Shown here: positions 10,228 through 49,708 of the stretch, in pieces
Numbering within the stretch: position 1 is the first letter of the stretch
How the letters are laid out: the number at the start of each line of letters is the position of its first letter
Source: Geobacter sp.
Lineage (GTDB): Bacteria > Desulfobacterota > Desulfuromonadia > Geobacterales > DSM-12255
Length of the DNA: 64,000 nucleotides
Direction of reading: 5' to 3'
NCBI GenBank assembly: GCA_009886125.1
Contig: VFJK01000027.1
Location: forward strand, 1-64,000
Notes under the pieces: model-generated
Seen by the model: the letters and a program-made list of their open reading frames with translations, nothing else
Told to the model about the DNA's origin: nothing
Databases searched by the model: none
Program-made: the position numbers and the translations under genes

Positions 10228-10229
10228 GG

Positions 10230-11494: not shown

Positions 11495-11537
11495 AACTGA
11501 AACTCTCCTGTCAGTCGGCAGTGATAGATGGCTGATA

Positions 11538-24612: not shown

Positions 24613-27600
24613 ATGCGGGATACTCTTGAGGTCGCTATGCAAAGGATGAGCCTTTTTGCTAAAGATGGAATCATCTTTTTCTGGGGCATAATCGCCGCCT
24701 TTAGTATCATCCTTACCCCGCTTGAGTCCCGCGCTGCCATCGGGACTACCACCCAGAACTGGCCTGCGACGCCGATTTATTCCAATGCGGCTTACCCTTC
24801 CGCCGCCATAACCTACAATGCCGTGGCCGGAAACAACCGCCTTCTGGTGGTGGGGATATCGTCCTCGACGACAGCAGTTAATCAATCTCAACCGACAGTT
24901 ACCTACGGCGGTACGGCGATGACTTATGTCATCGGTACCAATGCGACGGCAACCCAGCAGCACTCCTACCTGTTCTACCTGCCCCTCGGGAGTTCGGCCA
25001 GTGCCGATACCGGTAAAACCATAGCAGTCACCATCAGCGGCGGCACCTCCAAGCACTGCATCGTCAATGCGGCGGTCTACACTGGTGTTGATCAGACGAC
25101 CCCGGTTGGAACTTCGGTCCCGTCGAGCAATAATACCACAGCCGGTATTGCCGTCGGCCCGTTTACTCTGGCAGTCAACGCCGGCGAACTGGGGATCTCT
25201 GTGCTGAACACGGTACAGCCTGGAACGACCAATAATAATGCTTCGACCATTGCCCTTGGAGCAACCGGACATGTATGGACCCAGGTAAGCACTGCTGCCA
25301 GTGCTAGGATGAAAGGGGGTGCCTTGCGAACCACCTTCGCCACAACTCTTAATGTCAATACGGTCACAGCAACCCAGCACACGTCATCCGTCGCGACCCT
25401 GAACTCAACCGCGGCCATGACCATTAAGCCACTTCAGGGTATCACGGTTACCAACGGCTCGACGGTAGCCGGCAACAAGTCGGTTTATGTCAATGATGGC
25501 GCAAATTCCGCAAATGTGGTGGTTGACGCCTTTTCCATGACTGCCGATGCCCTGACGAACGTTACCGGCATTACCTTCACTGCCAATGCCAATACCACCA
25601 GCGGCAATGTTTCCGGCATCAAGGTCTGGCGCAAGGTCGGTGCAACCCTTGCCGCCTGGGAGGCAAGTGATGTCCAGGTGGGTGCCACTGCAACTGCAAC
25701 GGGTGGAGCAGTCACCATCTCCGGACTCACTGAATCCGTATCGACGGTGACGCAGAATTATATTGTCACCTATGATATTGCTTCCGCTGCAACAGCCTCA
25801 ACGACCAATATCCTCACCGGCACCATAACCGCCATTACGCCGGCAGCTATTTCCCTGACCGATACATCGGCATTCAGTGCTTCTATTTATATTTATCCGA
25901 CAACTACTCTTGGCACCGGCAGCGAGCCTCCTGCTGTCCGGCTCTGGAAGTCAAGCGCTGCTACCAGGCTTGACGCCTTCACTCTGGCTCATAACAGTTC
26001 CAATACCGCGGACAATGATACCGTCTCCACGGTCACCGTCACCATGACGCCGCAATACATCTCCGGCGGCTCTGGCGGCACTATTTCCAAGATCAAACTG
26101 ATGGAGATCATCGGCTGCACCGATGCGCCGGTTTGTGCTCCGGTAAATACGACGGTTTACGGCTCAAGCACTGCGGCGACAATCGGCGATGTCTGGAACA
26201 TATCGACTCCGAGCCTGATTGCAACCGCGACCCCTGCAACGTATTATGTGCGCGTTTCGACCGCCGACATCATTACCCCCTCAGTAACCGATACGTCCGG
26301 TACGCTTCTTGGCTATTATACGTTCAGCGGCACCGTAACGGCATTAGCGCACTCCAAGGCAAGCAATAAGCTGGTGCTGGGCGACAGTGCCGGTCAGTCA
26401 CTGGAGATTGATGTTGAAAAGCCGATCGGTCCGGCTACGGCAACCGCATCAACCGGCGCCAATGGCGGCGAGATCAATCTCGCCTGGGATACGGGAAGCG
26501 ACAGTAACGGTGGGTCGTTGGATGCAACAAGCCCATACATCGTCCGTCGCAGTGATCCCGACGGGACACAGCCCAGCCCCGGATGTACGGACGGCACAGT
26601 CGTAACCCTGTCCCCGGCAAATCAAACCAGTCGCAGCTTTGTTGATACCAGCCTGATTGATACAACTCCTACCCGCTATTACTACCGGGTCTGCGCTCAG
26701 GATTCCCAGGGTAATATCAGTGACGGTGCGGCATCATATGCCAATGCCAAAGTAACAAGTGTCTGTAATAAACCGCCAAGCGTCACACTGGCTTACGAAG
26801 ACGGCGGCACTACAGCGGGGATGCAGATTATCAAATCGTCTGTCAGCGCGCCCTTCAGGCTACAGATTGCCAATAATGATATTGGCAGCTGTCCGGATGT
26901 CGATTTTTCAGTTGTGTTAGCGAATGTTGTCGGCAATGACAGTCACTTCACCAAAACCATCGACGCTGGAGCATTCCCCGGAACGGTTACCCTCGGCACC
27001 GGTGGTGGCGGCGCCAGTACCGGTAAGACCGTCAATATCCTGGTTACCGGCATCGAAGCTGCCGGTGCCCTGCAGCTTGAAACCTACAAGTTTGCCGTTA
27101 CGGTCAGTTCGCCTGGCGACAACCATGGTGCTCCGATAACAACGCCGCAGGTTACCGGCCTTCTTAACGACATGCCGCCGATCGTCCACAACAGTGCCAA
27201 CATGGCCAAGTACCAGTACGGCAGCTGGGGGCAGACATATACCTGCGCCACTTGCCACTCCAACAGTACCACCAACATCAAGGGCGTCTATCAGATCATC
27301 TCTACACCGATCGGCAGAAGAAACGTTGTCTTTACCAAGACATCGTCTGTCGTGTCCGACTCGGACGGCGTTCTCAGTAATGACCTGAGACCGAACAAGA
27401 ACGGCTCCACCCAGGTGTGTAATATCTGCCATCATCAGACCCGTCAACACCAGTACAGTGCCAGCAAGGCGTTTGGTGGCCCACAAGGCGATGAAGCTTA
27501 TAACTCCGAGCACCACAACAGCCGCGATTGCATCAAGTGTCATACCCATAACAGTGCCTTCAAGTCGATTTACGGTCTCTGCGGCGACTGCCACGGTTTC

Positions 27601-30600
27601 AAAGCCACCGGTTATTCTCCGGTAAACAAGTCAACCATGGTCAAGGATCTCACCAACGCCCTTGGACCCAGTCCGCCCAACTACGGTGCCCATGCACGTC
27701 ACAACCTTGCAAAGATCTCCTGCGGTGCCTGTCACAGCAATACCAACCATGGTCTTGAAACTACCGCCTGGCAGGGAGACGCCATTCTTGAAATCGGTTT
27801 CAACGCCAGCAAGGATACCTTCTTCGGCTTTAATCCGATTGTTCCTGTGACCGGAGGGATCTTCTACGGCACCAACAATCTGAACGGCCCCTATGTCTGG
27901 TCAGCCGGTGCCGGAACAACCATAAGCACGATAGCCGATTACAACAACTCGTGCAGTACTTACTGCCACGGCGGTGGCTCCTGGGCAACCGGCGGCAATG
28001 TCGGCAGCAACACGACGCCAATCTGGGTAGGGACGAATCAGGCAACCTGCGGTACCTGTCACAATGCCAATGGTGAACAGCCTCCGGTTTCCGGCAGCCA
28101 TGCCAAGCATGCAGGCTCTTCCGGTGCCGGTCTCGGTATCGCCTGCAACAAGTGTCATGCCACCTACAGTAACTACACCGGTAGTGCCCACATCAACGGT
28201 AAAGTTGAGTGGAGCATGACCGCTTATCCCGGCGCACTCTATAATGGCTCCAATGCTGGTTCCACAAATCAGCCGGCACCTACCTCGTCGGGTAATTACG
28301 CTACATGCGACCAGCTCTACTGTCACAGTAACGTTCAGGGACCGACAGGGACCGGTGATCCAACTGCGTTTGCAAATCCGGCACCTGTCTGGGGTGGCAC
28401 TGCTCCTTGCGGTTCCTGCCACGCAGAACCCAATACTTCCGGTTCGCATTCGAGTCACGAGGATGTTGCCGTTGCCTTTGACTGCCACGTCTGTCACAAC
28501 AACGGCGGCACTACCTCACCACTGAATCACGCCAACGGCATCATCAACTTCTCGTTTGTCGGACTCGGTCAGAATACGGTCTACTCGGCGGGCACCGCCG
28601 TTCCTGCCGGTACTGCCTACGGCAACTGCAGCGTGAGCAACTGCCACGGTCGGTTCACCCGCGCCTGGGGAACTACCGCGTCCGGGTTGACCCTCTGCGA
28701 CAAGTGCCACGGGTCTGCCACTTCACCAGGCGGTTTCTACAATACCCGCGGCCCCGGCGGCACCCTCAGCATTTACTCGGCAGCCATAGGCGTGCATGAT
28801 ATTCACCTGCAGAACCCGAATTCACCCAGAAAGGCGACATTCTCCCGCTTTACTTCGTACGCAAAAGGATTCAGCTGCAGGCAGTGCCATGCGATGCCAA
28901 ACGGACCGTTCACGGCCGGTCATATCGATACAGCCCTGCCGGCAGAAGTTCCTTTTTCTCATGTCAGTTCCATTGCTAATGTAGGTCAGACCAAATTCAG
29001 CTACTACTCATCACCCACATACACATCCGCTACCCAGAGCTGCAGTGCAATCTGGTGCCACGGCGCCGGTATGAATTCAAACAATGCAACCGGGTCTTAT
29101 GTTGGTGTCTCCGGCAGCATCCAGCGGCAGAACCCTCAATGGAATGTGCCATACCTTACCGGCAACGGGGCAGACGACTGTACAAAGTGTCATGCCATGC
29201 CGCCACCAGCACCGGATTCAAGTTATATTCATTTTGGCAAGACACTTGCCAACTGCAAGGATTGCCATACGCATCTGTCTTCGGACGGGCTTGGCTTCAA
29301 GAACAAGTCCCTGCATGTCAACGGTGAGATTGACGGTGGTTGCGACAAATGCCACGGCTATCCGCCAATTAACAATATTATCGGCGATCATGAGGGTCTG
29401 GCAACGCCGGCGCAGAATGCACTTCGTCTTGGGACAGCTGGCGCCCATAATGCCCACGTACTCAATGTCAACATCAGCAAAAACTGCCAGACCTGTCACT
29501 ACGGTTACAGTCCGGCTATGCCGAGTGACAAGCTGGAGATCGGTTTCAACGGCTATAACGGCACAGTCGTAACCGGTTCTTTCAACGGTTACACCAATTC
29601 GGTCAACGGCCCCAAATGGCAGGCAAACAGCGCTCCTGGCGGCACCACTAGCATAATAAAAGTTAACGCTTCCGGTAGTCCCAACCAGTGTTCCAACCTG
29701 TACTGCCATGGCGGCGGCACGGCCACTCTTCCTGTCCTTGGTGGCGGCAGCAATACGAACCCGAACTGGGAAGGCGGCTCCGGCGATGCGATCTGCGGCA
29801 CCTGCCACGGTACCGATACCAACAGCGCTCCGACTGGCGGCTCCCATGACCGTCATGCCCTTGGTATAAACGGCGGTGTCGGCATACTTTGCAACTCATG
29901 TCACGGCTCTTCCGTCAACATGACCCATGTTAACGGAGCAGTCAGTTGGTCTCTCGATCGTTCCATCCCGGTGATTGGCGCCAGCGCTACCTATAATAAT
30001 ACCTCGTCCGGTTCCATAGCCGGACTTGCCCCGCGGAGCAACGGCTCGGATTACCAAAACTGCAACAATTTCTACTGTCATAGTAATGTTCAAGGTACCA
30101 ACGGCATCGGCGCACCAACAGCGTACGGATCACCGCGCTGGGGTACGGACAACGGCACGCTTAGCTGCGGTAGTTGTCATAAAAACATGGCCACTGATGC
30201 AACTCCGACCGGCAGCCACCTGAAACATGCCAATACCGGGGGCGCCAATATGGCTCTCACCTGCGGCTACTGCCATCAGGATGGCGGCAGCGGTTCGCTT
30301 AACCACGCTGACAACATGATCTTTGTCAATTTCACCAGTTATGTCGGTGGCAGCTATTCCAACAGTAACCGTTCAGCTGGCTCGGTTGCCGGTTACGGTA
30401 CCTGTGCCACCACCTTCTGCCACGGTACGGCTGCATCTGACCCATGGGGGACTGTCGGTCCGCTGGCATGTAACAGGTGCCATAGCGCCAAGGTGGACGA
30501 TGTGAGCTGGTCCGGTCGTCACAAGACCCATTACAACTACTCGACCATGCCGACCAATTATACCCAGACGGTCACTGATCTCAGTACTGCTACCAGGTAC

Positions 30601-32646
30601 CGCTTCAACTGCGCGCACTGCCATGATGACAACGTCGCCAAGCACAGCCTCAAGCCGGCTTCAGCCGACAGTGCCGCCCGCGTCTTCTTCGGCATCTCAA
30701 CAGCAACACCGGCTACCAGTAGCAAGCGTGGTACCTACGTGCCCGGCACACCGCAGGGAGCGACCGATAACGGCTTCAAGTTTACCGCCGGTTCCTGCAA
30801 CACCAGTTACTGCCACTCCAACGGCCGTGGTGGTGCGCCGAAAAATATGGCTCTCACCTGGACCTCCATACCGAGCGGCAACAACTGCCTCTACTGTCAC
30901 GACGGCAAGCGGACCAGCATTGCGCAACCTACCACTCTTTCCGGCAAGCATGACAAGCATATGAACTACTCGACCAATACCTTCATGGGGCGCGGCAACG
31001 GTTTTAACTGCGTCGATTGCCATGCCAGGGTCATTACCAATACCAACAACATTACCATTGCCAATAAGGGCAGACATGTTAATGCCCTGCTCGACTACTC
31101 CGGCGCCAAGGCGGGCAAGACCTTCGATGGCTCATCAAAGGTATGCTCCAACGTTTACTGCCACTCCAACGGCAATCCGAATGCAATCGTCTTTGTCGAT
31201 ATGACCGGCAGCAAGGTCTGGGCAAGCGGCTCGGCAGCCATCACCACCTGCAACAAGTGCCACGGCCGGACGACGACAACCGGTTATCCTGATTACGCCA
31301 ACGGCGGCGCCAATCAGGCGACTTCCAACCTTCATGCCGGTCATATGCAGGGCTTGACCGACACCACTGCCTGCGCCGACTGCCACCGCAAAACTGCAGA
31401 GACTGCCGTGCCGAACCGGTTCCGCCCATACTCCACCACGCACCTCAGCGGTGGACCGAATGTCGTCTTTAACCTTGCCAAGACTTATATCGGTAGCAAG
31501 GCGACCATGACAAAGGTCGGCAACTACCAGGTGACCTGCAGCAGCACCGTCTGTCACGGCCAGGGTGCGCCGGTCTGGGGATCGCAGCCGTCAGGCGCTG
31601 CCGGTGTCAGAACCTGTACCAAGTGTCACGGCACCAAAACAACGGCTGATTACCTGACCAACTACTCATCGGCTATGATCGCCCCTGGTTACAACGGCGA
31701 AGGTACCGACACAACCATGACCAAGGCGGCGGCAACCGATGCCCGCGTCGGTGCTCACCAGCGCCATCTGGTTTCTTCCGCGATTTCTGCGCCGGTCAAG
31801 TGCAACGAGTGCCACTTAACCGTGAACAATATTCGCTCCGGCAGCCACTGGAATATGTCAACTGCCACCATGACTTTCAATGGCCGGGCGACAGCCAGTT
31901 CCCATGTGCCGACCGTGGCCCGTAGCGGCGGCATCATCAGCTGCAGTGCAACCTACTGCCACACCGGTAAATACGACTCGGGCACCGCAATGACGCCACT
32001 CTGGAATAATACCGGTTTGGTCAACGAGACCGGTACCACTGTTGCTGAATGTACCAAGTGTCATGCCATGCCGCCGTCAGGCTACACCAGTCACCCGGGC
32101 GCACTCAGTGGCGCAGCTGCCATTTCAACCATCTTTGGGGCGTGCGGCTCCTGCCACACCACTCTGAGCAATAGCGCAACGGATGTCGGCAATGTTTTTA
32201 CGACAGCCGGCAAATTACTCCATGTTAACGGCTCGATGAACTATGTCGCAAATTGTGATGGCTGTCACGCCTATGACCTGACCGGCGGCGGCACCACCTG
32301 GACCCCTGCTCTCGGCGGTGGCACCGGCACAGGTGCTCATATCAGTCATATCACCTTTATTAAAAATCGGCTTGGCATTGTTTCGTTAACCGCCTCCGGA
32401 CAGACATTCGGCATCGGCGAGCCTGCCGGGGTCTGCGGCACCTGCCATACGAACACGCTGAGTGAGCACGATAACGGCTCGCGGCAGATTACCTTCGGTT
32501 CCGGCGGGACCGTTAACACAATGGGCGCCGGTTACGGCGGCAGCATGAGCCTGGTCTTCGGCGGTGCTAACCCGTCCTTTAACGGAACAAACAAGACATG
32601 TTCAAATCTGTCATGTCACTATTTCATAACACCGAACTGGTATTAA
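24613..32646 (+). CDS. Giant exported multiheme c-type cytochrome (2677 aa) with N-terminal Ig/FnIII-like region and CxxxxCH/CxxCH heme domains
   Basis: Hand count ~43 heme motifs: ~31 CXXCH, 11 CX4CH, 1 CX3CH; heme-free Thr/Ser-rich N-terminal ~860 aa. Confidence 0.93.
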   Translation: MRDTLEVAMQRMSLFAKDGIIFFWGIIAAFSIILTPLESRAAIGTTTQNWPATPIYSNAAYPSAAITYNAVAGNNRLLVVGISSSTTAVNQSQPTVTYGGTAMTYVIGTNATATQQHSYLFYLPLGSSASADTGKTIAVTISGGTSKHCIVNAAVYTGVDQTTPVGTSVPSSNNTTAGIAVGPFTLAVNAGELGISVLNTVQPGTTNNNASTIALGATGHVWTQVSTAASARMKGGALRTTFATTLNVNTVTATQHTSSVATLNSTAAMTIKPLQGITVTNGSTVAGNKSVYVNDGANSANVVVDAFSMTADALTNVTGITFTANANTTSGNVSGIKVWRKVGATLAAWEASDVQVGATATATGGAVTISGLTESVSTVTQNYIVTYDIASAATASTTNILTGTITAITPAAISLTDTSAFSASIYIYPTTTLGTGSEPPAVRLWKSSAATRLDAFTLAHNSSNTADNDTVSTVTVTMTPQYISGGSGGTISKIKLMEIIGCTDAPVCAPVNTTVYGSSTAATIGDVWNISTPSLIATATPATYYVRVSTADIITPSVTDTSGTLLGYYTFSGTVTALAHSKASNKLVLGDSAGQSLEIDVEKPIGPATATASTGANGGEINLAWDTGSDSNGGSLDATSPYIVRRSDPDGTQPSPGCTDGTVVTLSPANQTSRSFVDTSLIDTTPTRYYYRVCAQDSQGNISDGAASYANAKVTSVCNKPPSVTLAYEDGGTTAGMQIIKSSVSAPFRLQIANNDIGSCPDVDFSVVLANVVGNDSHFTKTIDAGAFPGTVTLGTGGGGASTGKTVNILVTGIEAAGALQLETYKFAVTVSSPGDNHGAPITTPQVTGLLNDMPPIVHNSANMAKYQYGSWGQTYTCATCHSNSTTNIKGVYQIISTPIGRRNVVFTKTSSVVSDSDGVLSNDLRPNKNGSTQVCNICHHQTRQHQYSASKAFGGPQGDEAYNSEHHNSRDCIKCHTHNSAFKSIYGLCGDCHGFKATGYSPVNKSTMVKDLTNALGPSPPNYGAHARHNLAKISCGACHSNTNHGLETTAWQGDAILEIGFNASKDTFFGFNPIVPVTGGIFYGTNNLNGPYVWSAGAGTTISTIADYNNSCSTYCHGGGSWATGGNVGSNTTPIWVGTNQATCGTCHNANGEQPPVSGSHAKHAGSSGAGLGIACNKCHATYSNYTGSAHINGKVEWSMTAYPGALYNGSNAGSTNQPAPTSSGNYATCDQLYCHSNVQGPTGTGDPTAFANPAPVWGGTAPCGSCHAEPNTSGSHSSHEDVAVAFDCHVCHNNGGTTSPLNHANGIINFSFVGLGQNTVYSAGTAVPAGTAYGNCSVSNCHGRFTRAWGTTASGLTLCDKCHGSATSPGGFYNTRGPGGTLSIYSAAIGVHDIHLQNPNSPRKATFSRFTSYAKGFSCRQCHAMPNGPFTAGHIDTALPAEVPFSHVSSIANVGQTKFSYYSSPTYTSATQSCSAIWCHGAGMNSNNATGSYVGVSGSIQRQNPQWNVPYLTGNGADDCTKCHAMPPPAPDSSYIHFGKTLANCKDCHTHLSSDGLGFKNKSLHVNGEIDGGCDKCHGYPPINNIIGDHEGLATPAQNALRLGTAGAHNAHVLNVNISKNCQTCHYGYSPAMPSDKLEIGFNGYNGTVVTGSFNGYTNSVNGPKWQANSAPGGTTSIIKVNASGSPNQCSNLYCHGGGTATLPVLGGGSNTNPNWEGGSGDAICGTCHGTDTNSAPTGGSHDRHALGINGGVGILCNSCHGSSVNMTHVNGAVSWSLDRSIPVIGASATYNNTSSGSIAGLAPRSNGSDYQNCNNFYCHSNVQGTNGIGAPTAYGSPRWGTDNGTLSCGSCHKNMATDATPTGSHLKHANTGGANMALTCGYCHQDGGSGSLNHADNMIFVNFTSYVGGSYSNSNRSAGSVAGYGTCATTFCHGTAASDPWGTVGPLACNRCHSAKVDDVSWSGRHKTHYNYSTMPTNYTQTVTDLSTATRYRFNCAHCHDDNVAKHSLKPASADSAARVFFGISTATPATSSKRGTYVPGTPQGATDNGFKFTAGSCNTSYCHSNGRGGAPKNMALTWTSIPSGNNCLYCHDGKRTSIAQPTTLSGKHDKHMNYSTNTFMGRGNGFNCVDCHARVITNTNNITIANKGRHVNALLDYSGAKAGKTFDGSSKVCSNVYCHSNGNPNAIVFVDMTGSKVWASGSAAITTCNKCHGRTTTTGYPDYANGGANQATSNLHAGHMQGLTDTTACADCHRKTAETAVPNRFRPYSTTHLSGGPNVVFNLAKTYIGSKATMTKVGNYQVTCSSTVCHGQGAPVWGSQPSGAAGVRTCTKCHGTKTTADYLTNYSSAMIAPGYNGEGTDTTMTKAAATDARVGAHQRHLVSSAISAPVKCNECHLTVNNIRSGSHWNMSTATMTFNGRATASSHVPTVARSGGIISCSATYCHTGKYDSGTAMTPLWNNTGLVNETGTTVAECTKCHAMPPSGYTSHPGALSGAAAISTIFGACGSCHTTLSNSATDVGNVFTTAGKLLHVNGSMNYVANCDGCHAYDLTGGGTTWTPALGGGTGTGAHISHITFIKNRLGIVSLTASGQTFGIGEPAGVCGTCHTNTLSEHDNGSRQITFGSGGTVNTMGAGYGGSMSLVFGGANPSFNGTNKTCSNLSCHYFITPNWY

Positions 32647-32696: not shown

Positions 32697-34589
32697 ATGG
32701 AGAAACCGGGTTTAAGTCTTAAAAGCAGCAGTATTTTATTGGGCATGCTGTTGCTGCTGGCGCTGTCACTGTCGCTGCCGCAAGAGGCAGCAGCCGCAGC
32801 GCTCAGTACCTGCAGTAACGGCGGACTCTCAGGCTGTCACTTCACCAACAACATGGTTAAGGACGGTACTGCCAGGAACACGCCTGCAGGCAGGTTCCTC
32901 GGCACACATGCACGGCACTCGGGCTATTCAACATCATCTGCAAAGCGCGAATACACGTATGCGTGTACGGTGTGTCACGGCCTTGCCGGCGGCTACGCCA
33001 ACAGCCACCAGACCGGATTCAAGAACATCTCCGGCAGCGGTCTGCCAGGTATTTCGTACTCCCGTGGCAAGAAAATTGCCAACACCGATACTCCGACATT
33101 CGGCAACTGCAATAACATTTACTGCCACAGTAGCGGTCGTGGCCCCGGTATGGGGCAGCAGCGGTATAGTTCTGCCAGATGGGCAGGCGGCGGGGAATGC
33201 CGTGCCTGCCACGGTGGACGGGCCAGCGCAACCGGTGCTCCGGCACGCAGCATTGGCAACTTCACCCTGACAACAACTCACTCCCAGCATTTGAAATATC
33301 CGGCAGCTAATATCAACTGTCAGTCGTGTCACTACAAAACCGCTACCGATGCGGCATCTCTCAAAAGCTATACCGCTGCGTTGCGTCATAATAACGGCAA
33401 GCGTGACGTGAACTTTTCGCTTGTCAGCTATGGCAGCTATACCTCCTACAAGAGTACGGAAACCGGCGCTGCCGCTACCACGCGAACTTGCAACAATACG
33501 GCCTGTCACGGCGGCAAGACCCGTGGTGTATGGTCTACAACAGCGCAGAATCTTGACAACGTCTGCCTCCACTGCCATGGTGCCGGCACCGGCCTCGGAG
33601 TAGCCCTGCGGGCTGACAAGTACAATGCAGCGCCAGGCTGGGGCGGAACCGGTACCAGTACCGACCAGCTTACTGCCGCCAGTAACATCAGGGTCGGTGC
33701 CCACTACAAGCACCTCTCCTCTGTCTATATGCCCAAGCTCAAGTGTAACGAATGTCATACCGTACCGTCAGGCCCGTTCGATGGCACTCACATGGCGTCC
33801 ATGCGGTTCACCAGCCCGACACTGACCTTTGCCCAGGCATCGACGGCAACAAGAAACACTACCACACCGGTAAAAACAGATGGCACCTCAGCGACCGATG
33901 CACAATGTTCTACCACCTACTGCCATGGCGGCAAAATGATCAAGAGTGACACCAGCGGTGCATCCAGAACACCGAGATGGGCCCAGGACACCCTCATGAC
34001 CGGTGTCGCCGCCGTAGATTGCGCGAGCTGCCATGGCAACCCGCCGACCGCCGGCACAACCGCATTGACCCACAGCCTCTATACTGGACAGCCGACAACA
34101 TCATGCGTTACCTGCCACGCCATGGTTGTTAACGGCTCAGGTGTCATCGTCAACAAAGCGCTCCACATGAACGGTATAATCAATGTTACCGCCGACTGCA
34201 ACGGCTGCCACAAGTACGACATCACCGGCACCAATACCTGGGCGAATACCACCGGCACGGATCGGGCTCACTACGTGCACATCGCCTTCATCAAGACCCG
34301 GCTAAGTTATGGTGCGCTGGCTGTGACGGGTCAGACGTTTGCCACCGGTGAGTCTGGCGCAGTCTGCAGTACCTGCCACACCAGCACCTTGCTCCAGCAC
34401 AACGACGGTTCGAAGCAGATTACTTTCGGCGCCGGCGGTACGGCCAACACCATGGGAGCCGGCACTGGCAACAGCATGAGCCTGGTATTCGGCGGCTCGA
34501 ACCCGGCTACACCAACATTCGTAACGGGCACCACTGTTACCTGTTCGAACCTGATGTGCCACTATGCAGTTACGCCTAACTGGTACTAA
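32697..34589 (+). CDS. Exported multiheme c-type cytochrome (630 aa), CxxxxCH/CxxCH type
   Basis: Signal peptide; hand count 13 heme motifs (9 CXXCH, 4 CX4CH) plus an atypical CX7CH near the N-terminus. Confidence 0.93.
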   Translation: MEKPGLSLKSSSILLGMLLLLALSLSLPQEAAAAALSTCSNGGLSGCHFTNNMVKDGTARNTPAGRFLGTHARHSGYSTSSAKREYTYACTVCHGLAGGYANSHQTGFKNISGSGLPGISYSRGKKIANTDTPTFGNCNNIYCHSSGRGPGMGQQRYSSARWAGGGECRACHGGRASATGAPARSIGNFTLTTTHSQHLKYPAANINCQSCHYKTATDAASLKSYTAALRHNNGKRDVNFSLVSYGSYTSYKSTETGAAATTRTCNNTACHGGKTRGVWSTTAQNLDNVCLHCHGAGTGLGVALRADKYNAAPGWGGTGTSTDQLTAASNIRVGAHYKHLSSVYMPKLKCNECHTVPSGPFDGTHMASMRFTSPTLTFAQASTATRNTTTPVKTDGTSATDAQCSTTYCHGGKMIKSDTSGASRTPRWAQDTLMTGVAAVDCASCHGNPPTAGTTALTHSLYTGQPTTSCVTCHAMVVNGSGVIVNKALHMNGIINVTADCNGCHKYDITGTNTWANTTGTDRAHYVHIAFIKTRLSYGALAVTGQTFATGESGAVCSTCHTSTLLQHNDGSKQITFGAGGTANTMGAGTGNSMSLVFGGSNPATPTFVTGTTVTCSNLMCHYAVTPNWY

Positions 34590-34652: not shown

Positions 34653-34774
34653 AAAAAAGAAAAAAATTTCAATGCTGGCAGAAATGTAATAAATAATAAG
34701 AAGTATTTCTGTTACTAATGCAATAAATGATACTGTTGAAAATGCACAGCCTAACACAACAGGAGCAGGACATC

Positions 34775-37700
34775 ATGGGGACAATCATGAAAAATAGACA
34801 CTATACACAACATCACATCACGCTCAGCCTCGCTCGTTCGGGTGCTCTATTGATGCTGCTGCTCCTGTTTTCAATTTGCTGCTTGCTGCCTGGCGAAGTG
34901 AATGCCGCTGCCATTACCTGCAGTGCCGGAGTTTCCGGCTGCCATTTTGCGCCGACTACCACACCGATGATCAAGGACGGCACCGGTCGCAACACTCCAT
35001 CCGGTCGTTTTACCGGCTCCCATGCCCGGCACTCCGGTTATTCGACGTCATCGGCAAAGGGGCAGTATAACTACGCCTGTACGGTGTGTCACGGCCTCGC
35101 CGGCGGCTATAACAACGCCCACCAGACCGGCTTTAAGAACCTATCCAGCAGCAGCCTGCCGGGCAATCGTTATTCGGCCGGCAAGAAGATCGCCAATACC
35201 AACAGTCCTGCGTTCGGCAACTGTAATAACATTTACTGCCACAGCAGCGGCCGTGCTGCCGGCATGGGGCAGATACAGTACAGTTCGGTGCGTTGGGGGG
35301 GGACGAAGACATGCCTCGGCTGCCATGGCGGGCGGGCCTCCGCCACTGGCGCTCCTGCAAAAAGCGTCGGCGGTTTCACCCTGTCCACCAGCCACAGTCA
35401 GCATCTCAAGTATCCGGCAGCGAACATCAACTGCCAGATCTGCCATTCCAAATCGACCCAGACCGACGCCTGGACGCTCAAAACCTATACTGCCGCAACT
35501 CACCATGTAAACGGGGTGCGCGAGGTCGAATTCACCAATCTTGCCTATGCATCCTACACCTCCTACAAGAAAGCAGGTGTCAACCTTTATAAATGCTCTA
35601 ATACCTCCTGTCATGGCGGGCTGAGCCGCAGCGCCTGGTCGGCATCAACACAGAACAGCAATCATACCTGTACCCATTGTCACGGTGTCGATACGGGAGT
35701 AGCGGCAGGCATGAGTGTCACCGGTGCCAATCGCTACAACCTCCGTTTCTTTGCACCGGGCTGGGCCAAGACCGGCACCAGCACCGATCAGACCAACAGC
35801 AGCAACAATATTCGGGTCGGTTCGCACTTCAAGCACCTCTCTTCCGTCTACATGAAGAACATCAAGTGCAACGAGTGTCACCTGGTGCCGTATACACCCT
35901 TTCAGGCCGGGACCAACCATACACTCAATACGACCCGCTTCAACTCCGGTACGCTTGACTTCAGCCAGTCATCATCCGCCAGAATTCTCATCGGTGTTGC
36001 CAGCGGTTCTACACCGGCACAGCTCTCGGCCTTTGCCGGTTACACCAACGGCCTTTCCAACAAGGCATCCACCTGCTCCAGCGTCTACTGCCACGGCTAC
36101 CGCCAAAAAGGTGCTGATACCACTGGATCTTACCGGAAGCCTTACTGGAACTACTCGGCCATGATCAATTACGGCGACAAGACCAACGCCTGCGGGCGCT
36201 GTCATGGCAACCCGCCACGACATGGCAGTTACTCTACAACACATAAGGACGTGGCACGAAATTCTTATACCACCTGCAACCCGTGCCACAATAATGTTAC
36301 TACGTCCGGTAACTTCGTTAATAAGGCTTTGCACATCGACGGCAGGGTACAGGCGTCCGGCGGCCATGAATGGAGTTTCGGCGGCCTCAGACACAAAAAT
36401 GGCGGCACCGGTTCCATTACTGCCAACCCGAATAGTTATTCCAACTGCACTGGTTGCCACTCATTAACAGGCGGGGGGACGTATCCGGTGGCACGTGGCG
36501 ATAAAGCTCTCATCAATTGTGCGCTCTGCCATATAAACCAGACTAACTTTACTAATACTCCAGGGTGCGGCGACTGCCACGGCACCAACGCCACCGGCCA
36601 GCCGAACGGTGCTGCCAATGCCTTCCCGAACTGGAGCGGTAGTCACACTAATCATACTGCCCAGGGCTTCGCATGCGCTGACTGCCATCAAAATGCAGGC
36701 AGTGGCACTGCTATTCACGGGAACTATTCGGGCAAGGCCGCCAAGACAAGGCTCACTGTCAACATGAAGTTTAATACTGCCAAGTCTGGTACGGCAGCAA
36801 CCTATACTGCTGCCACCATGACTTGTACCACATCAACCTGTCATGGACAGAAATCACCGGCATGGGGTTCAGCTACCCCTTCCCCTTCCTGTGTACGCTG
36901 TCACGGGTATCAGTCCCTGGCGACTCTCAATAACTATACGCAGAACTCCATAGCTCCGGGCACCGGCAATATCGATACCAACCGGGTGACCGGCATCACC
37001 GCCAGAGGCGGGTTGCATCAGGAGCACCTGAAAGGTTCGAGCAACCTGAGCCGCAAGGTTCGTTGCATCGAGTGCCACATCTCGACAACAGTTGTAAACC
37101 ATGGCTCACTAGACAACATGACGACTGCAGCTATGACTTTCAGCGGCGTTGCTACGGCTCTCAGTCATACGCCGACAGTATCCCGCGTCAGCGGCATCAT
37201 CAACTGCAGCACAAATGAATGCCACCATGGTGGAGCCCGAGCGGATGGCACTGCTGCCGGCCAGTCTGGCATTGCAACCCGTACATTACCGAAGTGGAAC
37301 GATTCCGCATTGCTTGGCAACACCACCATCGCAGACACCTGTACCGGTAAATGCCATAACATGCCTCCTGGCGGAGCAGTATCCGGGGACACCCATTCGG
37401 GCCTGACAGCAAGCGGAACCTACACCACTCCTACCCAGGTGGCAACCGCGTGCTCTAGCTGCCATGCGCCACTTAGCGCATCAGGTACCACACTTGCCAA
37501 CCTCTGGGCTGACATGAAGCTGCATATTAACGGCACAGTAGATGCGGCTTCAAAATGCGTCGACTGCCATGCCGTAGCCAAAGGGACGCGCTCTATAATA
37601 ACGGGCGCATCCGGCGAGTTCGGCCTTGCCTGGGGCCATAAAAAGTCAGGTCGCGGTGCGGTAACCGACGATGATTGCATTGTCTGTCACCTTGAAGGTG

Positions 37701-38659
37701 ATTCTACCACGAAGAAAATCAATCCTACATACCATCTAGGTCTACCGAATGGCAATATTGACCTCCGCGATCCGGATGGCACAGGTGAAGCAGCTATCGC
37801 CGGCCTTACCTTTACCAAGTTTGCCACATCGTATGCTGCAGGAAGCAGAACTTCGTCCATAGGCACGACTGTTGACTTTAAAATTACCCAGTTGTTCTGC
37901 CTCAAGTGCCATGATGCCGGTGGCGCTACCAACACAACGGCTCGTGCCGGTTCGAGTCCGTCAGCGACTGCTCCGTTCGGTGGCGGGTTTACAGCTACGA
38001 ATAGTTATGCTCAGTTTGCAACCACCAATTCTTCCAAGCATCCTATACTCGGGCCGTTGACCAAAGACTACCCGACTGCTGCACGAATGGCTGATCCATA
38101 TAAGCCGACCGGCACACGCGGCACCTCCGGAACGACGTCGGCTGGTGTGGTCATGAACTGCTTTGACTGCCACAACACACCGACGACACCTCTGACTGCA
38201 CGTACCGTTGCTGCCCACGGTAATGCAAATACCATAAGGGGTACCATACAGGTAGCTTCGCCTACCTTTTGTAATGTTTGTCATTTGAATTACGCAGTTG
38301 TATCCCAACATGGTACCGGATCGGCGTTTGCAGTCGGTGACTCACAGATGAAAGGGACGGTTATTCCTAATTGCGATAACTGTCACGCTGCTTCCTCCAC
38401 AGGTGACTCAGATCTCGTTCGGGCAGAGAATGTCCATGGAACAAGTACATTACCGGCTTCTGGGACAACTGCTAAAACCGGACGATGGGTTTCGTCGCCG
38501 TTGCCGATTTCATTTATAAGAAATACTGCATCACTCACCAACCATCAACCGAGAGTTGCTGGTGGAACAACTTACGCCCCACAATGTTCAATGAACGGTG
38601 ATAATGCTGCTTGTGCGGCTAGGCCAAACAGCCCTTACAGTCTTGGCGGAACGTACTAA
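34775..38659 (+). CDS. Exported multiheme c-type cytochrome (~1294 aa from likely start; ORF opens at 34727)
   Basis: AGGAGCAGG RBS-like before 34775; hand count ~26 heme motifs including 5 CX4CH and one CX3CH, plus atypical CX6CH near the N-terminus. Confidence 0.92.
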   Translation: MGTIMKNRHYTQHHITLSLARSGALLMLLLLFSICCLLPGEVNAAAITCSAGVSGCHFAPTTTPMIKDGTGRNTPSGRFTGSHARHSGYSTSSAKGQYNYACTVCHGLAGGYNNAHQTGFKNLSSSSLPGNRYSAGKKIANTNSPAFGNCNNIYCHSSGRAAGMGQIQYSSVRWGGTKTCLGCHGGRASATGAPAKSVGGFTLSTSHSQHLKYPAANINCQICHSKSTQTDAWTLKTYTAATHHVNGVREVEFTNLAYASYTSYKKAGVNLYKCSNTSCHGGLSRSAWSASTQNSNHTCTHCHGVDTGVAAGMSVTGANRYNLRFFAPGWAKTGTSTDQTNSSNNIRVGSHFKHLSSVYMKNIKCNECHLVPYTPFQAGTNHTLNTTRFNSGTLDFSQSSSARILIGVASGSTPAQLSAFAGYTNGLSNKASTCSSVYCHGYRQKGADTTGSYRKPYWNYSAMINYGDKTNACGRCHGNPPRHGSYSTTHKDVARNSYTTCNPCHNNVTTSGNFVNKALHIDGRVQASGGHEWSFGGLRHKNGGTGSITANPNSYSNCTGCHSLTGGGTYPVARGDKALINCALCHINQTNFTNTPGCGDCHGTNATGQPNGAANAFPNWSGSHTNHTAQGFACADCHQNAGSGTAIHGNYSGKAAKTRLTVNMKFNTAKSGTAATYTAATMTCTTSTCHGQKSPAWGSATPSPSCVRCHGYQSLATLNNYTQNSIAPGTGNIDTNRVTGITARGGLHQEHLKGSSNLSRKVRCIECHISTTVVNHGSLDNMTTAAMTFSGVATALSHTPTVSRVSGIINCSTNECHHGGARADGTAAGQSGIATRTLPKWNDSALLGNTTIADTCTGKCHNMPPGGAVSGDTHSGLTASGTYTTPTQVATACSSCHAPLSASGTTLANLWADMKLHINGTVDAASKCVDCHAVAKGTRSIITGASGEFGLAWGHKKSGRGAVTDDDCIVCHLEGDSTTKKINPTYHLGLPNGNIDLRDPDGTGEAAIAGLTFTKFATSYAAGSRTSSIGTTVDFKITQLFCLKCHDAGGATNTTARAGSSPSATAPFGGGFTATNSYAQFATTNSSKHPILGPLTKDYPTAARMADPYKPTGTRGTSGTTSAGVVMNCFDCHNTPTTPLTARTVAAHGNANTIRGTIQVASPTFCNVCHLNYAVVSQHGTGSAFAVGDSQMKGTVIPNCDNCHAASSTGDSDLVRAENVHGTSTLPASGTTAKTGRWVSSPLPISFIRNTASLTNHQPRVAGGTTYAPQCSMNGDNAACAARPNSPYSLGGTY

Positions 38660-38841: not shown

Positions 38842-40413
38842 ATGATACTGAAACACTTGAAATCTTTAAAAAAAAATAATAAAATTTTAACTCATTTCCT
38901 TTTCATAGTGGCCATAACATTTTTCTGCTTTGTATCCACGCTTTATAATGGATTTCTCTTGACCTGGGACGATGGCTACGGGATCGTCGAAAACAAGCAG
39001 ATCAGGCAGCTATCAATCGAAACCGTTCGCTGGGCCTTTACCACCTTTTACTTCCGCGATTGGCTGCCGTTGGTCTGGATTTCCTTTGCCATTGACTATG
39101 CTCTTTGGGGTCTGAACCCAGTTGGCTACCATCTTACCAACAATGTCCTTCATGCCTTGAGTGCAGGCCTGTTTTACCTGATCTCCCTGGCACTTGTCCG
39201 CCAGTATAAAACCCGGCGCAGTTCCGACACCGTTTTGAGTGGAATCAGGGATCTTTACTGTGCAGCGCTGGCAGCGCTGCTCTTTGCCACCCACCCCTTG
39301 AGGGTTGAATCGGTTGCCTGGGCTTTTGAGCGCAAGGATGTCCTCAGCCTGTTTTTCGGTCTGCTTTCCCTTCTTGTCTATCTTCGCTATGTCAGGTCGC
39401 GGGCTGCAGGGACAGCGTATGGGTCAGATGCTGCTTTCTGGCAAAGTCCGCTGTACTGGCTGGCAGTTTTCTTTTATTGTCTCTCTCTCTTTAGTAAGGC
39501 GATGCTCGTGTCGCTTCCGCTGGTCCTGCTGATCATTGATTGGTTCCCATATAACAGGATCAACCGGGAACAGGCCAAAACGGTTCTACTCGAAAAAACA
39601 CCCTTCATCCTCCTGGCAGGAACAACCTCGGCAATTCTCATGACAGTCCATGCCGCCGGTAAAATGCCGTTAAGCAAGGCTGATATGCTGTCGCGGATTT
39701 TGATTGCCTGCAAGTCTATTATCACTTATCTGCAGCTGACGGTCTGGCCGGTTAATTTGAGTCATTTCCATCTTCATCCCGGCAACATCGATAACCCCGG
39801 CTTTGAATATCTGTTTCCAATCTTTCTTTTCATTGTTATAACGATATGCTCGTTTTTGCTGCGTAAACGCTGGCCGGTCGTTCCAACGGTCTGGGCGATC
39901 TATCTCATTACCTTGTTGCCGGTGCTCGGTTTTACCCAGGTCTCCTCAACTGCCATGGCCGACCGCTACACCTATGTGCCTGGTCTGGCGATCTCACTGC
40001 TGGCAGCCGTGGCGATAATGGCGCTGGCAGATAACTGTTCAACGTCGCGTCTGCTCAGCAAGACAGTAACTGTGGCGACTATCGGTATTCTGGCGGTTAG
40101 CTCTTACCTGACAGTCCGGCAAATTTCCTACTGGAAGGATGATGTAACCCTCTGGAGCAGGGCAATCAAGCTGCAGCCGCACTTTTCCGGGAGGATGTAT
40201 GCCGAGCGTTCAGCAGCCTATAAGGCCAAAGGGGAGTTTCAAAAAGCGCTGCAGGACATAAATGAAGCAATCACCATTGCTACGCAGAAACGGCGACCGA
40301 AGATGGAAGAGCTTTATTTTGAGCGGTCTTCCATCCTGCAACTGTTGGGTGAAACCGCACAGGCAACCGCCGACTATAATTATGCGTTATCGCTGCTTGC
40401 CGGACAAAAATAA
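38842..40413 (+). CDS. Polytopic membrane protein with C-terminal TPR, TMTC/GT-C-like
   Basis: GFLLTWDDGYGIVENKQIR, ATHPLRVESVAWAFERKDVLSLFFGLLSLLVYLRY, followed by TPR-like C-terminus. Confidence 0.75.
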   Translation: MILKHLKSLKKNNKILTHFLFIVAITFFCFVSTLYNGFLLTWDDGYGIVENKQIRQLSIETVRWAFTTFYFRDWLPLVWISFAIDYALWGLNPVGYHLTNNVLHALSAGLFYLISLALVRQYKTRRSSDTVLSGIRDLYCAALAALLFATHPLRVESVAWAFERKDVLSLFFGLLSLLVYLRYVRSRAAGTAYGSDAAFWQSPLYWLAVFFYCLSLFSKAMLVSLPLVLLIIDWFPYNRINREQAKTVLLEKTPFILLAGTTSAILMTVHAAGKMPLSKADMLSRILIACKSIITYLQLTVWPVNLSHFHLHPGNIDNPGFEYLFPIFLFIVITICSFLLRKRWPVVPTVWAIYLITLLPVLGFTQVSSTAMADRYTYVPGLAISLLAAVAIMALADNCSTSRLLSKTVTVATIGILAVSSYLTVRQISYWKDDVTLWSRAIKLQPHFSGRMYAERSAAYKAKGEFQKALQDINEAITIATQKRRPKMEELYFERSSILQLLGETAQATADYNYALSLLAGQK

Positions 40414-40429
40414 GCTTGCGACAAGTTCC

Positions 40430-40475
40430 CTTCGACTCCGCTCAGGGAACAGCCGTACGCTGAGCGGAGTCGAAG
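40430..40475. repeat. REP-like palindrome
   Basis: CTTCGACTCCGCTCAG (40430-40445) and CTGAGCGGAGTCGAAG (40460-40475), perfect 16-bp inverted repeat. Confidence 0.7.
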
Positions 40476-40538
40476 CGTATTTCAGTTGGCTTACTCGCTG
40501 CAAAGCAGCGTGGAACGCTAATTACAAATGAGGGATAA

Positions 40539-41663
40539 ATGGATAAACCTGTAGACGCGACCACACAGAAACCGCTTCAGAAAATGTTCGCAAAGCTTTA
40601 TGATTTTCTTGCCTCGGCCAAACTGGCGCTGGCGCTGCTGATCATTATTCTGGTTATCTGTACTGGCGGCGCTACCTTTTTATCGGGTGAAAAAGCAGTC
40701 AAATATGTTTTTTCTACGCTCTGGTTCAACGCGCTGCTGATACTGCTGGTGGTCAATATCGCCTGCTGCTTTTCAGGCCGGATTTTGCGCCGTCGTCTCA
40801 CTATTATTTCATTAGGCATGATCTTGTTTCACATCAGTTTTGTCACTATTCTGCTCGGGGTTGTCTACAACAGCCTCTTCTATTTCAGGGGGACCATTCG
40901 CCTGACAGAAGGGGAAACACTGCGCAGCGGCGATGCCTCCAGCTATGATAAATTTGAACATGGGCGTTTTTTCTCTTTTTTACGCGTGAGAGGTGAAACG
41001 AAACTGATAACCGTGCATCATGGCTATAAAGTCGGCACCGAAAATAAAAGGGCGGCGTACGAGATAGAGGTTGGTAATGGCGGAGAGAAAAAAACCGGCA
41101 TCATCTACGTGACCCATAATCTGAGCCATAAAGGCTTTACCTATTATCCCGAAGTTGAGGGATACTCGCTGTTTGTCATGCTTGCCAATGCCAGCGGCAG
41201 GGATATTTATGGTGCTCATATCCCCTTGCAGAGTCTGAAGCAAAAGGACGGCTCATTTATCTATGCGACCGGATCAAAAGAGGGCGCCAGTCCATTTCCC
41301 TTCCCGCAAGAACATATCCAGCCATTTATGGGGCTGCTGCTGGGGTTTGTGCCGTCTGTGGCGATGGATCGAACCGGCCTGGTGAATTATAAAGCCTATC
41401 CTCTCGTCGGTGATGGCTTTAAAATTGGTGATGAAGCGATACTTGAGGGGCAGGTCAAGAGCGGCGAATCATTCAGCGCCTTCAATCACAGCATGGCTGT
41501 CAGGGAGATTCGCTACTGGGTGACCATGACTGTGCGCCATGAACCGGGTAAGCCGATTGTGCTAACGAGTCTTTGCGTCTGTCTGCTCGGCATGACTATT
41601 ACTACTGCCGGGAGAATGTTCAGGAGAAAAGAACCAGGTCAGGACAATTCTAAGGTTCCGTAA
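40539..41663 (+). CDS. ResB-like cytochrome c biogenesis protein (System II)
   Basis: LYDFLASAKLALALLIIILVICTGGATFL..., WFNALLILLVVNIACCF, periplasmic domain, C-terminal TM. Confidence 0.85.
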   Translation: MDKPVDATTQKPLQKMFAKLYDFLASAKLALALLIIILVICTGGATFLSGEKAVKYVFSTLWFNALLILLVVNIACCFSGRILRRRLTIISLGMILFHISFVTILLGVVYNSLFYFRGTIRLTEGETLRSGDASSYDKFEHGRFFSFLRVRGETKLITVHHGYKVGTENKRAAYEIEVGNGGEKKTGIIYVTHNLSHKGFTYYPEVEGYSLFVMLANASGRDIYGAHIPLQSLKQKDGSFIYATGSKEGASPFPFPQEHIQPFMGLLLGFVPSVAMDRTGLVNYKAYPLVGDGFKIGDEAILEGQVKSGESFSAFNHSMAVREIRYWVTMTVRHEPGKPIVLTSLCVCLLGMTITTAGRMFRRKEPGQDNSKVP

Positions 41664-41716
41664 CCGGCTTAAGTGAGGAGGTAACAATCAAAGCTGTCGG
41701 TTCTGTAAATACGCCT

Positions 41717-44020
41717 TTGAAATTGATTATGCCAGCGGCAATCCTTGCCTCGATTCTGCTGCTGTTTTTTGGCGACCTGCTGTTTTCCGGCGGAGAAAGG
41801 ATCCTTTCCGCCAAAGGTACCGATGCCTATGCGCAATTTATTCACTGGTATGCTTTCGGCTTTGGCGAGCTGAAAAACGGCCAGCTACCCCTCTGGAATC
41901 CTCATATTTATTCCGGCGCGCCATTTTTGGGCGCATTTCAATCGGCGCTTTTTTATCCATTGAACTGGCTTTACCTGATTTTGCCGCTGCCGGTGGCGAT
42001 TAATCTGGGAATCGTCCTGCACCAGTTTCTGGGCGGGTATTTCTTCCAGTTCTGGCTGCAGCGCCGCGGCTTGCCGCTTGCAGCAGCGATGCTGGGGAGT
42101 GTGCTGTTTATCTTCTCTGGTGCGCAGTTCCCCCATATTTATGCGGGACATCTTCCCCATTTAGCGGCAATGGCCTGGGCACCGCTGATTTTCCTCGCCA
42201 TTGACAGTCAATTTGAACGGCCAGCGCCGGTTTGGCTCCTGGCAGGAGGAGCCGCGATTGCCATGCAGATCCTGGCCGGACATCCACAGTATGTCTATTA
42301 CACCGGGATCACGGTTGTCCTTTACTGCTCACTGCTTACCATTACGGCCCGGGAGCGCTCCTGGAAAGCACCTGCCGGCGTAGCAGTCATGTATCTGCTG
42401 GCGCTTGGCCTCAGCAGTGTGCAGTGGCTGCCGGGCCTGCAAGCAGCGGCTGAATGCGTCCGCTCCGGTGGCCTGCAATATAAAATGGCCGCCATGTTTT
42501 CGCTGCCGCCGGAAAACCTGCTGACCCTGCTCGCCCCCGGTTTCTTCGGCTCCATGGACGGGTTTCCCTACTGGGGGCGCTGGTATCTCTGGGAGATGAG
42601 CCTGTTCATCACAGTCAGCGGGCTGGTGCTGGCAGTTCGAGGCATAGGTGCGATCCAGCGGCGCGAACGGACGGTGGTCCTGATAATCATGGTTGTGCTG
42701 CTGCTGCTCGCCTTCGGCAAACATACCCCTTTGCATCAGCTACTGTTCAATATTCTGCCCGGTTTCGATCTTTTTCGCAGCAGCGCCAAGTTCACTTTCC
42801 CGTTGCTGCTCTTTATGATTCTGCTGGCGGCGTATGGCGCCAATGCCTGGTCGGGAAAGGGACGGGTGAGCCAGAGCGCCATTAACAGGATTGTTGCTTT
42901 TGGCGTATTGGTAGCCGGCTGCGGCTGCCTGCTGCTGACCTCTCAGGGGGCGAAGTTTCTGGCGTGGTTCATTGAGAGTGTTCTTATCAAGTCCGGCGAC
43001 AGCTACTATATGTTCAACCCGGCAGCATTACCGCAATTTGCCAGTGAAGCTGCCACCAATGGCGCTGTCACGTTACTGTTCGCTTCCTGCACACTGCTGC
43101 TGCTGGCGGCTGTTTTATGGGGGGCGCGCACCAATGAGTATATCGGCGAGCGACTGGGATGGCTGCTGCTGCTCCTGGCTTTGCTTGAAGGCGGCTTTTT
43201 CGCAGCCGGATTTCGCAGCACCTTTGATCGCCGTGAGGCGATAGCGCCGGTCTCTGCCGCTGCCATGAAAAAAACTGGTGACAAGGATAGCCGCGTGCTC
43301 AATCTGGTGCTGGCCAATTCGGCCATGTCAACCGGAGAGTTTGATGTCTGGGGTGATGACCCATTCGTAACGAAACGCTATGCCCAATTTATGGCATATA
43401 CACAAGGAATGGACCCCAAGAAGGCGACTCAGTACCTGGAGCTGCGCCAGAACAGTCCGCTGTTGCGCCTTGCCCGCTGCGCCGCGGTGCTGACTTTGGA
43501 CGGACAGATTACCTATCTCGAAAATCCGCTGCCGCGTTTCCAGATTGTCCCTGACTGGAAGGTAGTGGCCTCAGCTGACGCCGTGCTGGAGGAGTTGGGG
43601 AAAGCGGATTTCGAGCCGACCAAGAGGGTGCTGCTGGAGTCTGATCCCGGTCTTCAGCATGTCGCTGCTCAAAGCGGAGCAGTTGGCGCTGTTACGGTTG
43701 AGCAGGAGACGACTGACACGGTAACTCTCAATGTTACGACTGCTGTGCCGGCAATTCTCTTTGTGACCGATGCCTGGACACCATCCTGGCGGGCGGTGAG
43801 TCTGCCGGGGAGCAGTCAGCGCGAGTATAAGCTGCTGCCGGGGGATTATGCCTTCCGGGCAATTCCCTTGAATGCGGGAGTGCACCGGCTCCGGATGGAG
43901 TACCATTCGCCGGAGCTGCTCTACGGGGGATGGATTTCAGCCGGATCGTTCCTCTGTCTGCTTGGCGGGGCACTTTTCCTGGCTCTGCATCAACGAGTAA
44001 AAGCGAAAGCCTCGCCCTGA
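41717..44020 (+). CDS. YfhO-like large polytopic membrane protein
   Basis: LWNPHIYSGAPFLGAFQSALFYPLNWLYLILP and C-terminal LFVTDAWTPSWRA...YRAIPL-type blocks. Confidence 0.8.
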   Translation: MKLIMPAAILASILLLFFGDLLFSGGERILSAKGTDAYAQFIHWYAFGFGELKNGQLPLWNPHIYSGAPFLGAFQSALFYPLNWLYLILPLPVAINLGIVLHQFLGGYFFQFWLQRRGLPLAAAMLGSVLFIFSGAQFPHIYAGHLPHLAAMAWAPLIFLAIDSQFERPAPVWLLAGGAAIAMQILAGHPQYVYYTGITVVLYCSLLTITARERSWKAPAGVAVMYLLALGLSSVQWLPGLQAAAECVRSGGLQYKMAAMFSLPPENLLTLLAPGFFGSMDGFPYWGRWYLWEMSLFITVSGLVLAVRGIGAIQRRERTVVLIIMVVLLLLAFGKHTPLHQLLFNILPGFDLFRSSAKFTFPLLLFMILLAAYGANAWSGKGRVSQSAINRIVAFGVLVAGCGCLLLTSQGAKFLAWFIESVLIKSGDSYYMFNPAALPQFASEAATNGAVTLLFASCTLLLLAAVLWGARTNEYIGERLGWLLLLLALLEGGFFAAGFRSTFDRREAIAPVSAAAMKKTGDKDSRVLNLVLANSAMSTGEFDVWGDDPFVTKRYAQFMAYTQGMDPKKATQYLELRQNSPLLRLARCAAVLTLDGQITYLENPLPRFQIVPDWKVVASADAVLEELGKADFEPTKRVLLESDPGLQHVAAQSGAVGAVTVEQETTDTVTLNVTTAVPAILFVTDAWTPSWRAVSLPGSSQREYKLLPGDYAFRAIPLNAGVHRLRMEYHSPELLYGGWISAGSFLCLLGGALFLALHQRVKAKASP

Positions 44021-44061
44021 AACGAGCGACTGGAATTTGATTAAACGTTACTTCAGGAGGT

Positions 44062-45399: not shown

Positions 45400-45479
45400 A
45401 GTTATCTCTTTGTAACCTTTACAGCTATGTGTATGATATTTTCAAATAGTGCACATAAAGTTCCTGAAGGAGGTGTATT

Positions 45480-45692
45480 GTGCTTGCTCGTACCAATGTA
45501 ATGATTGATCTTGATCTGGTTCAGGAAGCTTGCCGCCTTACCAGCATCAAGACAAAGAAAGACGTTATTGCCTGTGCTCTGAAAGAACTGGTGTCGCAGC
45601 GCAAGCGGCAAAAGCTGCTCACTCTCAGGCATGCTGGACTCTGGTCGGGTGATCTGGCTGCTCAACGGGAAAGTCGCCATGATCCTGCTTGA
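45480..45692 (+). CDS. vapB: VapB-family antitoxin
   Basis: ARTNVMIDLDLVQEACRLTSIKTKKDVIACALKELVSQRKRQKLLTLR. Confidence 0.85.
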   Translation: MLARTNVMIDLDLVQEACRLTSIKTKKDVIACALKELVSQRKRQKLLTLRHAGLWSGDLAAQRESRHDPA

Positions 45693-46080: not shown

Positions 46081-46133
46081 TCCTTTGTAATTGATCGAAT
46101 TGATGTAAAAATTGAGTAAATCTGGAGGATATA

Positions 46134-46961: not shown

Positions 46962-46970
46962 GCAGTCTTC

Positions 46971-48281: not shown

Positions 48282-48283
48282 CT

Positions 48284-49691: not shown

Positions 49692-49708
49692 TAGTCACCA
49701 GGGGGCTC

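Follow-up and report, generated by a model that had tools for sequence, protein, structure and literature searches.

A 43-heme giant cytochrome of Geobacter with an invariant 28-heme core, a candidate single-chain electron wire

Introduction

What might one polypeptide with 43 heme-binding motifs do for a Geobacter cell? The question is raised by a gene at positions 24613–32646 (plus strand) of a 64,000-nucleotide stretch of Geobacter sp. DNA (assembly GCA_009886125.1, contig VFJK01000027.1), which we call the window. The gene is a single unbroken open reading frame that starts with ATG and encodes a c-type cytochrome of 2677 amino acids. A first-pass annotation had proposed that a heme-free, adhesin-like N-terminus could anchor or extend a chain of hemes outside the cell, which may form a conductive surface fibre. 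Such a protein could be a wire, a store of electrons, the subunit of a polymer or a conduit through the cell envelope.

Results

Heme motifs and family

The 43 heme motifs comprise 31 CxxCH, eleven Cx4CH and a sole Cx3CH at residue 1114, and this exact count is identical to the hand count in the first-pass annotation. Shuffling the residues of the protein 500 times produced 0.38 motifs on average and four at most. Written as the number of residues between the two cysteines of each motif, the motif types form the barcode 2222232242242242222422422422422422422422224. The first motif starts at residue 878, and therefore about 877 residues, close to the 860 estimated initially, are heme-free.

The protein belongs to the CxxxxCH/CxxCH domain c-type cytochromes (TIGR01904/PF09698, GSu_C4xC__C2xCH), whose alternation of Cx4CH and CxxCH motifs it shares. 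The TIGR01904 model matched twelve stretches (E=9.8e-68, 223.9 bits, cut-off 27), PF09698 scored 80.9 (cut-off 21.7), and PF14522 and PF22113 matched as well. The window protein is an additional member of this known, little-studied class of giant cytochromes; the TIGR01904 model is limited to a 73-residue unit and gives no information on the N-terminus, the 28-heme core or the tail described below. Searches of solved structures returned no PDB chain at E<=0.01 with the single sequence or at 0.1 with a profile of residues 1620–2320. The protein is very large for a c-type cytochrome in general, as had been stated, but frames of 2000–3700 amino acids with 34–68 motifs are common in Geobacterales. 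A record size is ruled out by a relative of 3752 amino acids with 68 motifs (48 CxxCH, two Cx3CH and 18 Cx4CH; locus L047, G008:C4, 7725–18983), which also has the 28-heme core.

Residues 1–42 (24613–24738, plus strand) read by eye as a Sec-type signal sequence with likely cleavage after ESRA, and two alanines past the hydrophobic stretch are conserved in relatives. There is no cysteine within residues 1–148 and hence no lipobox. The C-terminus consists of a heme motif followed by HYFITPNWY and contains no hydrophobic helix.

Close relatives are encoded in genomes of uncultured Geobacter and Geobacteraceae (53–72% identity over the best-matching segment), as well as by the cultivated species Pelotalea chapellei (36–37%), which has a 34-motif relative. 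The host genome (G000) contains a second giant locus on contig C20 (L037, 4081–18693). It encodes a 43-motif protein of 3026 amino acids, in which the heme-free region is 1212 residues long, with the first N-terminal domain present in an additional copy; a gene for a 29-motif protein comes after it. Two loci of the genus g7 (L079 and L097) also encode giant cytochromes with heme-free N-termini of 600–900 residues, with a different barcode in which 224 is repeated from the first motif on.

A 28-heme core of fixed layout and a variable tail

The window protein was aligned with five relatives that are 55–74% identical to it (the C20 copy and proteins from L011, L012, L013 and L041). All 43 heme motifs are invariant in the six proteins, without exception among their 86 cysteines and 43 histidines. 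Because every heme site is retained in the five relatives, the number of motifs is under selection. Of the 50 non-motif histidines in the heme region (after residue 870), 43 are invariant, one per heme, which is the expectation if each heme has two histidine ligands. Most other residues are invariant at about 20–55% of their positions; the value for tryptophan is also high.

A wider alignment of 15 Geobacterales proteins, down to about 35% identity, contained the same six, a close relative with 48 motifs and eight distant ones. The first 28 heme sites (residues 878–2004; 27244–30624, plus strand) retain 56 of 56 cysteines and 28 of 28 histidines in all 15 proteins, which are related and thus not independent observations. 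The motif types of this core follow the order 22222 3 22 4 22 4 22 4 2222 4 22 4 22 4 22. A few core Cx4CH motifs are replaced by Cx3CH, and in two of the 15 proteins the last two core hemes align behind a five-heme insertion. Twenty-six non-motif histidines between residues 841 and 2050 are invariant in 15 of 15 proteins, in strong contrast with other residues, for example 2 of 100 alanines and 9 of 122 serines. The remaining hemes, 29–43 (residues 2062–2668; 30796–32616, plus strand), form a tail that is kept only within the 43-heme subgroup. The tail differs between relatives, and the total number of heme sites ranges from 33 to 68. The invariance of the core across relatives suggests a built-in molecular wire with a defined layout. 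We found no description of a 28-heme core with a variable tail as a subfamily-level regularity in the literature searched, but one may exist elsewhere.

Modular repeats and the downstream cytochromes

The heme region is built from modules. In most of them a Cx4CH motif precedes two CxxCH motifs, and about 107–138 residues separate it from the next Cx4CH. Residues 1059–1574 (27787–29334, plus strand) and 1641–2161 (29533–31095, plus strand) form an internal duplication with 33% identity. Matching pairs of modules reached z of 13–15 in a module-by-module alignment with the heme residues masked, whereas a BLASTP self-comparison returned no repeats.

Two further cytochrome genes follow on the plus strand. 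The first (32697–34589) encodes a 13-heme protein of 630 amino acids that aligns with the giant's C-terminal quarter at 37% identity, and the second (34727–38659) a 26-heme protein of 1310 amino acids that is 29% identical to the giant. The 13-heme protein is also 54% identical over 500 residues to the N-terminal part of the 26-heme protein. Given these identities, duplication together with gain and loss of modules is the probable origin of the three-gene array.

The heme-free N-terminus

The heme-free region (residues 43–877; 24739–27243, plus strand) is predicted to be a string of beta-sandwich domains, at least one of which is Ig-like. Pfam recognised no family in the N-terminal 876 residues, even at E<=10. 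An AlphaFold2 model based on seven sequences was all-beta, with a mean pLDDT of 54 that rose to about 80 in an Ig-like domain (residues ~275–410). The other predicted domains are a first beta domain (~45–260, low confidence), a second Ig-like (~425–580), an FnIII-like (~605–715) and a last Ig-like domain (~720–835), followed by the conserved linker LNDMPPIVHN. Foldseek matched the model to multi-domain Ig/FnIII proteins, pilins, and fimbrial subunits and chaperones, with low TM-scores and generic folds. Thus the Ig/FnIII-like character proposed earlier agrees with the predictions at the level of fold, whereas "adhesin" remains an analogy.

In the six-protein alignment, conservation is lower in the N-terminus (44–69%) than in the heme region (61–76%). 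When the N-terminus was used as a query, matches were obtained in 15 of 58 related genomes, mostly in frames of 2600–3760 amino acids. From 297 genomes spread over the phylum, a near-full-length N-terminus was recovered in just two, the host and another member of its order; elsewhere the matches were partial and chiefly to the FnIII-like part, which a profile also detected in other families.

Gene neighbourhood

Downstream of the cytochrome array, the plus strand encodes a ResB-like cytochrome c biogenesis protein (40539–41663; PF05140, E=3e-12), which adjoins large cytochromes in relatives, a lipoprotein with PD40/WD40-like propeller repeats (44062–45399), which recurs in the cluster, and a ResC/CcsA-like cytochrome c assembly protein (46134–46961; PF01578, E=9e-35). 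A membrane protein with TPR-like repeats is encoded before ResB, a YfhO-like membrane protein between ResB and the PD40 lipoprotein, and a radical SAM/B12 protein and two LuxE-like proteins after ResC. Giant cytochromes, the PD40 lipoprotein, ResB, ResC, the radical SAM/B12 protein and LuxE-like acyl-protein synthetases form a cluster that recurs in Geobacterales (40539–50926 in the window). Besides the ResB of the window, there are 20 strong relatives in 58 genomes. Counted manually, 16 of 18 loci around ResB homologs contain at least one gene with at least nine heme motifs, usually together with the PD40 lipoprotein, and the two loci without a large cytochrome gene begin at contig edges. G. 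sulfurreducens and G. metallireducens each have four ResB/ResC pairs, all accompanied by multiheme cytochrome genes (Aklujkar et al. 2009, PMC2700814). The authors suggested that a pair acts on the cytochromes of its own neighbourhood, and left open what the several pairs are for (PMC2700814).

No porin family was recognised by Pfam among the neighbours at 38842–52268, and inspection with partial scans recognised no beta-barrel genes beside the relatives examined. The upstream genes of relatives were considered as porins, but two of them encode ammonium transporters and are ordinary neighbours. No pilin gene was recognised beside the giant. Control by a GEMM-type riboswitch, suggested in PMC2700814, was rejected, as no Rfam family matched upstream of the giant gene, in six loci of relatives when the gathering score was applied, or in the 5' region at E<=5. 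Elsewhere in the window (8971–13112, minus strand), genes for an NrfD-like membrane protein, a 4Fe-4S protein and a four-motif cytochrome lie in a row and probably encode a quinone-linked respiratory complex.

Aromatic C-termini

All three cytochromes of the window (C-termini at 32646, 34589 and 38659) end in WY or TY. This pattern was met in passing and was not planned as a test. Among 96 distinct genes with at least eight heme motifs, taken from related loci, the very last residue is W, Y or F in 59%, compared with 6% of 393 heme-free frames, some of which are spurious. When the proteins were grouped by C-terminal similarity, five of 11 heme groups and 13 of 242 heme-free groups ended in one of these residues (Fisher p = 4e-4). 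The aromatic ends belong to several unrelated motifs (CHYxxTPNWY, WNxKTPW, YTxGGTY and ARPLTY). Our guess is that the aromatic C-terminus of giant cytochromes may act as an export or sorting signal, loosely like the ends of outer-membrane proteins.

Discussion

Proposed mechanism of electron transfer

Judged from its sequence, the giant cytochrome is very probably exported and meant for long-range electron transfer. We consider it reasonably probable that it is secreted and works as a single-chain electron wire on the outer side of the inner membrane, with the outer membrane or the space beyond it as its most likely place. For its export, heme ligation, chain geometry, location, heme attachment and role we infer the following scheme. 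The protein would leave the cytoplasm by its Sec-type signal sequence, and the downstream ResB/ResC pair would attach hemes to the CxxCH sites as well as to those of the Cx4CH and Cx3CH types. The 43 bis-histidine hemes, largely in triheme modules (Cx4CH-CxxCH-CxxCH), would form one long chain along the polypeptide, in which the 28-heme core of fixed layout is followed by the lineage-specific tail. The beta domains of the N-terminus may be a stalk, an anchor or a partner-binding part, and the giant would pass electrons to minerals or partner cells. OmcZ filaments span 58.1 Å per eight hemes (PMC9473688); at this spacing the 43 hemes would extend over ~31 nm and the core over 20 nm, which is arithmetic and not a measured length. 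An AlphaFold2 model of the heme region had a pLDDT of 26, so no heme geometry could be read from it. Genetic data on other large Geobacter cytochromes, which were compared with the giant by description, support a role in transfer to other cells: G. metallireducens without the 34-heme Gmet_0571 transferred electrons more slowly to Methanosarcina, and without the 27-heme Gmet_0558 more slowly to G. sulfurreducens (PMC10989804). The placement of the wire is tentative, as no lipobox, C-terminal anchor or adjacent porin gene was recognised.

The giant might instead be mainly a capacitor, in which 43 periplasmic or surface hemes buffer electrons from respiration, whether or not the chain is continuous. 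Butler et al. proposed that Geobacter cytochromes may be valued for their heme-bearing capacity, as sinks (PMC2825233), and the varying number of tail hemes would suit such a role. In a pure store, however, sites could be lost or change places without harm, whereas in all 15 proteins the first 28 occur in the same order, nearly always with the same motif type, and with their spare histidines. A chain in which each link matters explains this invariance better than a mere store, and we regard the store as unlikely.

Head-to-tail assembly into a conductive fibre, as in OmcS, OmcE and OmcZ, with the beta domains as assembly parts, appears quite improbable to us. Geobacter does make cytochrome filaments (PMC9473688), and pilin and fimbrial subunits were among the Foldseek matches of the N-terminus. 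These matches, however, reflect a generic Ig fold on a low-confidence model, the giant has no sequence relation to the solved filament cytochromes, and its internal chain of 43 hemes is already long without polymerisation. The initial interpretation is partly supported: the evidence agrees with a huge multiheme c-type cytochrome, its heme-free beta N-terminus, very probable export and, from the conserved heme sites and spare histidines, long-range electron transfer. Surface location and adhesion are conjectural, and the polymeric fibre finds no support in a sequence relation to OmcS, OmcE or OmcZ or in a porin or pilin gene beside the giant. A giant threaded through a porin and spanning the periplasm and outer membrane is more improbable still. 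The estimated length of 30 nm would suffice, and outer-membrane conduits of Geobacter employ multiheme cytochromes (PMC12307469), but neither Pfam in the window cluster nor inspection with partial scans beside the relatives examined recognised a partner barrel.

Comparison with named cytochromes

The single-chain wire that we favour resembles the OmcN-type giants (OmcN, Gmet_0581 and Gmet_0571) in its dozens of hemes, in a heme-free region with a predicted Ig fold, as reported for an Ig-like domain of Gmet_0581 (PMC10989804), and in the ResB/ResC pair close by (PMC2700814). In contrast to the window giant, OmcN-type proteins have 34 hemes, and OmcN is annotated as a lipoprotein (PMC8691401). 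We did not accept the giant as OmcN, which was compared by description only; the barcode of a 34-motif candidate of 2356 amino acids from L097 differs. Of the g7 giants with the 224 barcode, one with 34 motifs is encoded ~2 kb from a ResC gene; they are possibly of the OmcN type. The filament proteins OmcS, OmcE and OmcZ are likewise extracellular multiheme electron carriers of Geobacter, and Ig-like domains are reported for OmcZ-type proteins too (PMC10989804), but they are polymeric, with 4–8 hemes per subunit.

The MHC-A, -B and -C proteins of ANME archaea (20–80 heme sites) share with the giant the very many hemes, the heme-free N-terminal region (types B and C) and the expanded CxnCH spacing (PMC9012536). 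A maturation paralog, CcmF2, is encoded beside MHC-B, and the authors propose to explain a special CcmF by either the extreme size or the expanded CxnCH motifs (PMC9012536). Unlike the window giant, in which Pfam recognised no S-layer family, the archaeal proteins have S-layer domains and transmembrane anchors in types A and B, and depend on Ccm instead of ResBC. The resemblance is likely convergent.

Implications

We speculate, with considerable doubt, that the Geobacterales proteins constitute an undescribed subfamily of single-molecule wires, which would combine a beta stalk, the fixed 28-heme core, lineage-specific tails that bring the total to 33–68 hemes, a ResBC pair dedicated to Cx4CH and Cx3CH sites, and export by a C-terminal aromatic signal common to unrelated giants of the same genomes. 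Relatives of Geobacter have many giant CxxxxCH cytochromes, some of which are linked to interspecies electron transfer. The subfamily with the invariant core is a clear target for study: one protein with a defined heme order and a predictable length and bis-histidine ligation. The occurrence of ResBC beside the Geobacter giants and of CcmF beside the ANME giant is a parallel of interest, with no homology implied. The system could also show whether heme attachment at Cx4CH sites requires a dedicated ResBC pair.
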